Shown: positions 1-48,386 of the stretch, piece after piece
Layout: the number at the start of each line of letters is the position of its first letter
Position numbering within the stretch: position 1 is the first letter of the stretch
Assembly: GCA_030693415.1 (NCBI GenBank)
Contig: JAUYAR010000150.1
Coordinates: 1-48,386 of the forward strand
Length of the DNA stretch: 48,386 nt
Reading direction: 5' to 3'
DNA from: Candidatus Cloacimonadaceae bacterium
Lineage (GTDB): Bacteria; Cloacimonadota; Cloacimonadia; Cloacimonadales; Cloacimonadaceae
Program-made: the position numbers and the translations under genes
The notes under the pieces: generated by a model
Told to the model about the DNA's origin: nothing
Seen by the model: the letters and a program-made list of their open reading frames with translations, nothing else
Database searches by the model: none

Positions 1-126
1 TGGTCATTCGCTTCCAGTTGCTCTCCACCCCACCTCACGGTGACGCAGTTACCTTCGGCTACAGAGTTTTAACGGTGCTCTGAACAGGACTTTCACCTGT
101 CTGATATGTATCGCTCACAGGCGCAC
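1..126 (-). mobile_element. 5' end of a group II intron (truncated by window edge)
   Basis: Read on the minus strand from 126 downwards, this begins GTGCGCC and continues with the pattern GGTGAAAGTCC, GCCGAAGGTAACTGCGTC and GGTGGGGTGGAGAGCAAC. That resembles the 5' boundary and early domain I of bacterial group II introns, which typically start GUGYG. No maturase is visible because the window ends. The first 115 nt are identical to the copy at 48272-48386. The family assignment rests on recalled intron 5' ends, not on a folded structure. The insertion point lies 4 nt beyond a CCGACG hairpin (131-148). Confidence 0.75.
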
Positions 127-130
127 GAAC

Positions 131-148
131 GCCGACGTCCCCGTCGGC
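131..148 (-). repeat. CCGACG hairpin, intron-occupied copy
   Basis: gccgacgtccccgtcggc is a perfect 7-bp stem with a 4-nt loop. Read on the minus strand it is followed by gttc and then directly by the intron GTGCGCC. It is one of seven copies in the window. Confidence 0.85.
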
Positions 149-205: not shown

Positions 206-223
206 ACCGAAGGGGACGTCGGT
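206..223 (+). repeat. CCGACG hairpin, degenerate empty copy
   Basis: accgaaggggacgtcggt is the same hairpin with one broken pair. It is followed by aattc-cat, which matches the intron target with no intron present. Confidence 0.75.
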
Positions 224-239
224 AATTCCATAGCGCATA

Positions 240-257
240 GCCGAATCGGAATTCGGC
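240..257. repeat. GCCGAA/TTCGGC hairpin repeat, left copy
   Basis: gccgaatcggaattcggc has a 6-bp stem and is followed by a 'ttcccaatgg' tail. A near-identical copy with a similar tail lies at 48139-48156. Confidence 0.65.
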
Positions 258-361
258 TTCCCAATGGAGAGAATGCGGCTACCCAATTATCCCATGCCGA
301 TGTAGTATCTGCTTGTGACGGTGGCAGTTCCAGATTCGTAAAAGATGAAAAACGTGGCTGG

Positions 362-455: not shown

Positions 456-513
456 GCATTACGGTATCAATACGGACTCATTACGGACTAAGTCCGTATT
501 AACTCCGTAATGC
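456..513 (+). repeat. ACGG palindrome (family A), copy 1
   Basis: Arms at 456-478 and 491-513 start GCATTACGG and end CCGTAATGC, flanking a 12-nt centre. The arms pair with a couple of mismatches. It is preceded by ccccctttgc and followed by a degenerate GCAGCAT element at about 521-544. Other copies are at 27304-27361 and 47970-48027. Confidence 0.85.
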
Positions 514-618: not shown

Positions 619-672
619 GCCGACGGGGACGTCGGCGTTCCATGATATGGAATTACCGACGTCCCCGTCGGT
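619..672. repeat. Head-to-head pair of CCGACG hairpins
   Basis: Hairpins at 619-636 and 655-672 face each other around gttccatgatatggaat. Each is followed on its own reading strand by an uninterrupted (g/aa)ttc-cat, so both are empty intron sites. Confidence 0.85.
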
Positions 673-810: not shown

Positions 811-828
811 GCCGACGGGGACGTCGGC
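811..828 (+). repeat. CCGACG hairpin, empty copy
   Basis: gccgacggggacgtcggc, followed by gttc-catgattt. The preceding cttcgtgtc is shared with the copy at 619, so the repeated unit is longer than the hairpin alone. Confidence 0.85.
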
Positions 829-27030: not shown

Positions 27031-27048
27031 ACCGACGTCCCCGTCGGT
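27031..27048 (-). repeat. CCGACG hairpin, copy in central mosaic
   Basis: accgacgtccccgtcggt. Read on the minus strand the hairpin is followed by aatgcc rather than ttc-cat, so this copy lacks the apparent intron target tail. Confidence 0.8.
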
Positions 27049-47969: not shown

Positions 47970-48027
47970 GCATTACGGAATCAATACGGACTCATTACGG
48001 ACTAAGTCCGTATTGACTCCGTAATGC
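47970..48027 (+). repeat. ACGG palindrome (family A), copy 3
   Basis: Arms at 47970-47992 and 48005-48027 (GCATTACGG...CCGTAATGC) pair with one mismatch around cattacggacta. The flanking ccccctttgc and taaggagtagcgc match the copy at 456-513. Confidence 0.88.
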
Positions 48028-48038
48028 TAAGGAGTAGC

Positions 48039-48248: not shown

Positions 48249-48266
48249 ACCGACGGGGACGTCGGT
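48249..48266 (+). repeat. CCGACG hairpin, intron-occupied copy
   Basis: accgacggggacgtcggt, followed by aattc and then directly by the intron start GTGCGCC at 48272. Confidence 0.85.
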
Positions 48267-48271
48267 AATTC

Positions 48272-48386
48272 GTGCGCCTGTGAGCGATACATATCAGACA
48301 GGTGAAAGTCCTGTTCAGAGCACCGTTAAAACTCTGTAGCCGAAGGTAACTGCGTCACCGTGAGGTGGGGTGGAGAGCAACTGGAA
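48272..48386 (+). mobile_element. 5' end of a group II intron (truncated by window edge)
   Basis: 115 nt starting GTGCGCCTGTGAGCGATAC, identical to the reverse complement of 12-126. It shows the same GGTGAAAGTCC and GCCGAAGGTAACTGCGTC motifs expected of intron domain I. The maturase and 3' end lie outside the window. Confidence 0.75.

Follow-up and report, generated by a model that had tools for sequence, protein, structure and literature searches.

Both ends of the DNA stretch analysed here (the window, 48,386 nucleotides) break inside one and the same intron, and at each end the intron starts just after a short palindrome, which raises the question of how this element comes to its insertion sites. 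The window is the whole of contig C150 (of 185) of a 2.81-Mb genome that is 99.8% complete, and its ending inside an intron at both sides is what would be expected of a repeat. Of the intron, the window contains no more than nt 1-115 (right) and nt 1-126 (left); EBS1, the protein and the 3′ end come from other contigs of this genome. Intron-bearing contigs other than C153 stop about 97-138 nt into the intron, so that the EBS1 of an individual copy is readable on C153 only. The source looks like a metagenome-assembled genome, so the copy counts may include strain variants of one site. Our answer is that the element belongs to a hairpin-directed group II intron lineage that works like group IIC introns and whose habitat here is a family of REP-like palindromes.

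The right filled site in the window reads ACCGACG-GGGA-CGTCGGT-AATTC↓GTGCGCC and the left one GCCGACG-GGGA-CGTCGGC-GTTC↓GTGCGCC (↓, point of insertion; Table 1), so that the two copies follow different types, A and B, of one hairpin family, REP1. Folded as single-stranded DNA, the right-copy hairpin reaches −9.5 kcal/mol (z −4.6), and the palindromes give z values from −3.7 to −5. The hairpins, junctions and strands at these two sites and at four empty copies are as given in the preliminary description; all four empty copies do read hairpin-TTC-CAT, although one has a mismatch in its stem. Two of them form an inverted doublet with unfilled TTC↓CAT sites facing each other, and the same layout is present beside a transposase gene on contig C29. 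A hairpin of a second family, REP2, which is empty in the window, is filled on contig C153. Palindrome matches with at most two mismatches number 14 in the window versus 1.84 expected, and 0 of 100 shuffles reach 14.

Table 1. Intron ends, target hairpins and empty sites in the window.
Feature	Position	Strand	Remarks
Intron 5′ end, right copy, nt 1-115	48272..48386	+	GTGCGCC start; contig ends inside intron
Intron 5′ end, left copy, nt 1-126	1..126	-	100% identical over the 114-base query; contig begins inside intron
Target hairpin, right copy, REP1 type A	48249..48266	+	7-bp stem, loop GGGA
IBS1, right copy, TAATTC	48266..48271	+	Last 6 exon bases
Target hairpin, left copy, REP1 type B	131..148	-	7-bp stem, loop GGGA
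IBS1, left copy, GCGTTC, overlapping stem foot	127..132	-	6/6 pairs with EBS1 GGATGC, two of them wobbles
Empty REP1 inverted doublet	620..671		Type B (+) at 620-635, type A (-) at 656-671
Empty REP1 type B site	812..827	+	TTC-CAT
Empty REP1 type A site	207..222	+	One stem mismatch (CCGAAG), still TTC-CAT
Empty second-family hairpin (REP2)	239..258	+	AGCCGAAT-CGGA-ATTCGGCT, then TCC↓CAA
REP1 palindrome with no competent site	27032..27047	-	Perfect palindrome, then TAATGCC

Using 114 bases of the window's right copy (48273-48386) as query, we located 16 5′ ends of the intron in the genome, each at 100% identity across 97-114 bases, and there are 13 3′ ends. Every one of the 16 5′ junctions adjoins a hairpin. 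Fifteen abut a CCGACG-loop-CGTCGG hairpin, with the loop GGGA except for one AGGA and one GAGA, and the exon after it ends in TAATTC (nine copies), CGTTC (five) or CGCTC (one). The sixteenth, on C153, abuts the second family, GCCGAAT-CGGA-ATTCGGC, and follows AGCCGAAT-CGGA-ATTCGGCT-TCC. The filled strand is always that on which the loop reads GGGA, AGGA, GAGA or CGGA, and all 13 3′ junctions read TA(T/C)↓CAT. The proposed insertion just behind a hairpin, always on the same loop strand, is supported by all 16 junctions, with the correction that one copy uses the second hairpin family and has TCC↓C in place of TTC↓C. Introns lying away from any hairpin, named earlier as evidence against such targeting, are absent among these 5′ junctions. 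GC skew, which is weak here, gave no signal of a replication-strand bias such as the preference of group IIC for the lagging-strand template: 7 of 11 filled and 44 of 98 empty sites are on the positive-skew strand.

The copy on C153 comprises domain I and a 443-aa open reading frame with reverse transcriptase (RT) and maturase domains, in which no endonuclease domain was found; domains V and VI, with a bulged A, are supplied by other contigs. Because of these two domains, the GTGCG start and the RT/maturase frame, the element can be classed from its sequence as a group II intron. Rfam RF00029 matches at 65.6 bits (cut-off 40) and the D1-D4 models below threshold only; in the protein, RVT_1 and GIIM exceed their cut-offs and TIGR04416 scores 379 bits versus 300. 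The intron's 5′ domain shows 33 pairs with two-sided changes, and the domain VI bulge is present. Named close relatives of the protein come from Candidatus Cloacimonadota, and its nearest solved counterparts are GsI-IIC and E.r. IIC. In a maximum-likelihood tree, it groups with introns from Verrucomicrobiales and from a Cupriavidus plasmid (100/99); the class C references (GsI-IIC, E.r. IIC and L253, an integron-borne intron) form a separate clade (100/100), and in this unrooted tree the two clades may be sisters. The protein thus appears to lie outside class C, and "IIC", the comparison made at the outset, stands here for behaviour rather than for demonstrated membership. Types g6, U1 and U2, which are near class C, also sit after terminators (PMC8919778), and the present clade may prove to be one of them. 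The most similar plasmid-borne intron, on plasmid pMTS3 of Cupriavidus sp. P-10 (L251 around 2068; 46% protein identity), likewise has a small hairpin rich in GC a few bases ahead of its first nucleotide (ACCGC-GTCA-GCGGT-TTAGT↓GTACGCC).

EBS1 occupies intron nt 176-181, in the loop of a domain I hairpin, and its partner is the last six exon bases. An alignment of intron 5′ ends yielded the EBS1/exon pairs GATTCG/CGAATC, TAGTGC/GCGCTA, TAGTGT/CCACTA, TAAGGG/CCCCTA, AATATC/GGTATT and GGGTAC/CCACCC, and EBS1 of the present genome, GGATGC, pairs with GCTTCC (C153) and GCGTTC (type B sites). In a blind scan of nine introns, with every 6-nt stretch of the intron set against every exon offset (2032 combinations), column 176 against exon positions −6 to −1 came first by a wide margin, with 5.22 of 6 pairs with the introns' own partners versus 2.17 with others. 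Shuffling of partners gave p = 0.0002 for EBS1 positions 1-3 and p = 0.00035 for positions 4-6, values that serve as a guide only, the introns being related. No second region pairing further upstream in the exon, i.e., no EBS2, emerged from the same scan. An EBS pairing with TTC, as had been anticipated, is thus present and covaries with the exon in relatives, but the pairing extends over six bases and is not confined to TTC. Bases 4-6 of IBS1 fall at the stem foot or within it, so that insertion would have to open the lowest stem pairs. Counting against our best explanation, GGATGC, the only EBS1 that is readable, fits the commonest site, TAATTC, poorly: four of six pairs form, one a wobble, as at the window's right copy. 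Other intron copies may carry a different EBS1, hidden by the assembly. The 3′ part of the intron exists in at least two sequence versions, GCTGG or GCCGG ahead of TCTCTTAC, and one copy ends in CTAC, the others in CTAT (L051, L059, L060 against L050; L052); these differences point to intron subfamilies, whose EBS1 could differ.

The same intron 5′ end is present in 15 related genomes. The 22 further junctions, from 12 related genomes, all lie behind a stem, which is perfect over 5 bp or more in 17 cases and imperfect in five; entry L071 of the junction list is a false match. The relatives' hairpins vary in sequence (TCGACACG-AGA, CGTAAACG-AGGA, CTGCCAAT(T)-CGGA, TCGTAGCAT-TGGA, GTGGCAATC-TGGA and others). 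In genomes G033 and G021 the introns sit on each genome's own multicopy palindrome: that of G033 has 60 copies there and none in five other genomes searched, and that of G021, which flanks a transposase gene, has 44 copies there and 1-9 loose matches in five other genomes searched. Filled palindromes in G033 amount to 0 of 11 without (T/C)TC versus 4 of 9 with it (p = 0.026). C at +1 is common to most relatives, two having T instead, and the following AT is part of the present genome's repeat. In four related genomes (L086, L104, L125, L131) introns stand after one common short hairpin, GAGTCCC-A(T/G)C-GGGAC, followed by GG(T/C)ATT↓ or GAAATT↓, with T at +1 where seen; this hairpin is a second target type within the intron clade.

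The whole genome holds 198 exact GGGA-loop palindromes (104 + 94; reversed control, 0), and 117 relatives hold 0-4 each, in keeping with the original suggestion that the target is a dispersed palindromic repeat through which the intron, now found at no fewer than 16 sites, can spread. Our census of empty sites combines whole-genome pattern counts with 0.97 Mb of fetched contigs. By the former, 148 palindromes have TTCC 1-8 bases after them and are still empty at TTC↓C; in the latter, filled and empty sites stand at 7:55 for TAATTC-like exon ends, 6:36 for CGTTC, 1:12 for CGCTC and 0:7 for TAAATC. On the opposite (TCCC) strand, TTC directly follows the stem in 65 copies, 15 of which have TTCC, and none of the 65 is filled. 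REP1 palindromes are often arranged as inverted doublets. Of the genome's three Y1 transposase genes, one (C29) is surrounded by 11 REP1 copies in an array, one (C45) is flanked by REP2 on both sides, and one (C71) has three REP1 copies nearby. Two of the transposases (C29, C45) exceed the Pfam Y1_Tnp cut-off, and the best NCBIfam model for all three is REP_Tyr_transpos (76.8, 68.9 and 50.9 bits; cut-off 80). Because of the inverted doublets and the clustering around a REP-transposase-like gene, the palindrome family looks like REP/REPIN. On the other strand the target TTC↓C becomes GGAA; it occupies the palindrome foot, the place of GTAG in known REPs (PMC2817692). One may conjecture from this position that the intron recognises and splits a part of the palindrome that is likely to be conserved for the transposase.

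We consider it highly probable that these sites reflect a mobile, hairpin-directed intron specialised on REP palindromes, working as a whole in the following way. The group II intron, composed of its RNA and the endonuclease-less 443-aa RT/maturase, would actively retrotranspose: it would reverse-splice into DNA that is single-stranded or forms a cruciform, at a point directly 3′ of a short hairpin. Its choice of target would combine (i) the hairpin, whose shape and loop (NGGA or AGA) are probably what is recognised, (ii) pairing between the six-nucleotide EBS1 and exon positions −6 to −1, which reach into the stem foot, and (iii) C at +1 (IBS3). In this genome the qualifying hairpins would be the REP-like elements, present in about 200 copies that REP-associated tyrosine transposases have probably multiplied, and the intron would have spread to 16 or more of them. 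Its relatives in sister genomes occupy the palindromes of those genomes, and their EBS1 has changed to match. Against this account stand, besides the poor EBS1 fit, the T at +1 in two relatives, the lack of a skew-related strand bias and the transposase scores just under the NCBIfam cut-off. Hairpins could also be mere markers of intergenic DNA rich in repeats: of the 37 non-REP1 hairpins with TTC↓C in the 0.97-Mb sample none is filled, a difference from REP1 that reaches only p = 0.04.

The strongest competing account, which we regard as unlikely, is ordinary IIC behaviour, in which the hairpins would be intrinsic terminators and the intron would insert after terminators generally, striking REPs because they are numerous. 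Insertion behind terminators is indeed documented for IIC introns (PMC4424553, PMC8919778), the solved proteins closest to the present one belong to that class, and single-copy relatives use hairpins of many sequences. However, no T-run follows the present hairpins and a terminator scan called none of those in the window, which led us to reject terminator identity for them. The placement of the protein outside class C also argues against this account, as does the covariation of EBS1 over six bases versus the 3-4 reported for IIC (PMC7923331). The loops point the same way: counted by eye, 9 of 13 target hairpin families have NGGA or AGA on the intron strand, whereas among the genome's 139 stem families the commonest loop is NGGA in three and AGA in none.

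Far less probable is that the intron was a passenger, intron-bearing REPs having been copied by the REP transposase or by inter-repeat recombination and the sites not having been chosen by the intron at all. The intron copies are nearly identical, and composite repeats flank many sites, with shared stretches of up to about 200 nt; the longest high-identity match that reaches a junction, between two copies, is 190 nt at 96%. When the 16 upstream flanks were compared all-against-all, however, the shared parts were pieces of composite repeats only, and beyond about 190 nt of shared repeat all 16 flanks are different. The copies are therefore not products of duplicated loci, and flank duplication, the other source considered in the preliminary description, was rejected. 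Three site types (A, B and REP2) are filled, with the remaining flanks unique, the junction falls at one exact base, and EBS1 tracks the exon in relatives, all of which speaks against passive copying.

Scarcely credible is sequence-only homing, by which about seven bases (IBS1 and the +1 C) would be recognised and the hairpin would be irrelevant baggage of a frequent repeat: the six-base pairing is enough for partial specificity and palindromes without TTC are unfilled in G033, but only 149 of 11,876 TTC↓C sites in the 0.97 Mb have a perfect stem (≥7 bp) whose end lies no more than 6 nt upstream, yet a hairpin is present at every filled site, and relatives whose IBS1 differs are found behind hairpins of unrelated sequence. 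Such stems precede 69 of 20,000 random positions.

According to a review, the targets of bacterial group II introns are of three kinds, namely homing sites, terminators and attC (PMC4424553). Introns of group IIC use attC or positions behind terminator hairpins, with an IBS1 of 3-4 bp (PMC4424553, PMC7923331), and in the E.r. IIC structure the DNA stem is read by shape with a spacer ahead of IBS1, the stem-loop being described as exclusive to IIC (PMC10190682). With GsI-IIC and E.r. IIC (PMC10190682, PMC4424553) the present intron shares an endonuclease-less RT/maturase, a hairpin just 5′ of the insertion site, the use of EBS1 and a single +1 base, the lack of an EBS2 signal, and intergenic sites. 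Unlike them, it groups outside the class C clade, its target is a dispersed repeat family, and its covarying EBS1 has 6 nt and a partner overlapping the stem foot, as against 3-5 bp plus a spacer; unlike their terminator targets, its stems have 7-9 bp, an NGGA/AGA loop and no T-run. IIC-attC introns of integrons (PMC7923331) likewise use a recurrent palindrome, on one strand only and as a hairpin, with spread through a repeat family possible, but their target is attC, with TTGT↓T, and not REP, and the integron intron in our tree is a member of class C. Insertion sequences, and 2 of 9 group II introns of Pseudomonas putida, have been found in REPs (PMC1525189, table entry); there too mobile elements occupy REP palindromes, but most are DNA transposons, and the P. 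putida intron is REP-associated in only 22% of its copies, compared with 16 of 16 here. In a literature search largely confined to open-access papers, this entry was the only link between group II introns and REP, RAYT, BIME or Cloacimonadota. The palindromes themselves resemble REP/REPIN with RAYT (PMC2817692, PMC3116915) in their hundreds of copies, inverted doublets and cluster beside a Y1 transposase gene, and differ in having GGAA, the complement of the intron target, for GTAG, in the phylum (Cloacimonadota) and in transposases just under the NCBIfam cut-off.

Hairpin targeting would here occur in a protein clade outside class C. The EBS1 is longer and no EBS2 is detectable, as might be expected of a mode of recognition halfway between those of IIC and of IIA/IIB. 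The proliferation of the intron could be due to the hundreds of sites, probably harmless ones, that a dispersed REP family provides; since both filled and empty sites occur naturally, the rules by which structured DNA is recognised can be tested directly on them. We give roughly even chances to the broader proposition that an intron lineage outside class C lives on REP palindromes, reads hairpin shape, NGGA/AGA loop and six-nucleotide EBS1, and re-tunes EBS1 as the REP families of its hosts turn over; it would then be a selfish element exploiting the conserved ends of another, and hairpin targeting would not be exclusive to IIC.

A further dispersed palindrome (..CAATACGGACTCATTACGGACTAAGTCCGTATTGACTCCGTAATG..) lies near both contig ends (window 471-512 and 47979-48029); its core stem occurs about 31 times in 0.97 Mb, with no intron after any copy. 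A CGGC-loop family with the stem GCAGGAT or GCAGCAT (window about 410-430 and 860-885) has some 40-50 copies in the 0.97-Mb sample, was never seen as a target, and is without TTCC after the stem where inspected. Apart from the intron, the genome (G000) encodes a second reverse transcriptase domain (contig C140:4661-5173, L048), within a 1252-residue open frame.
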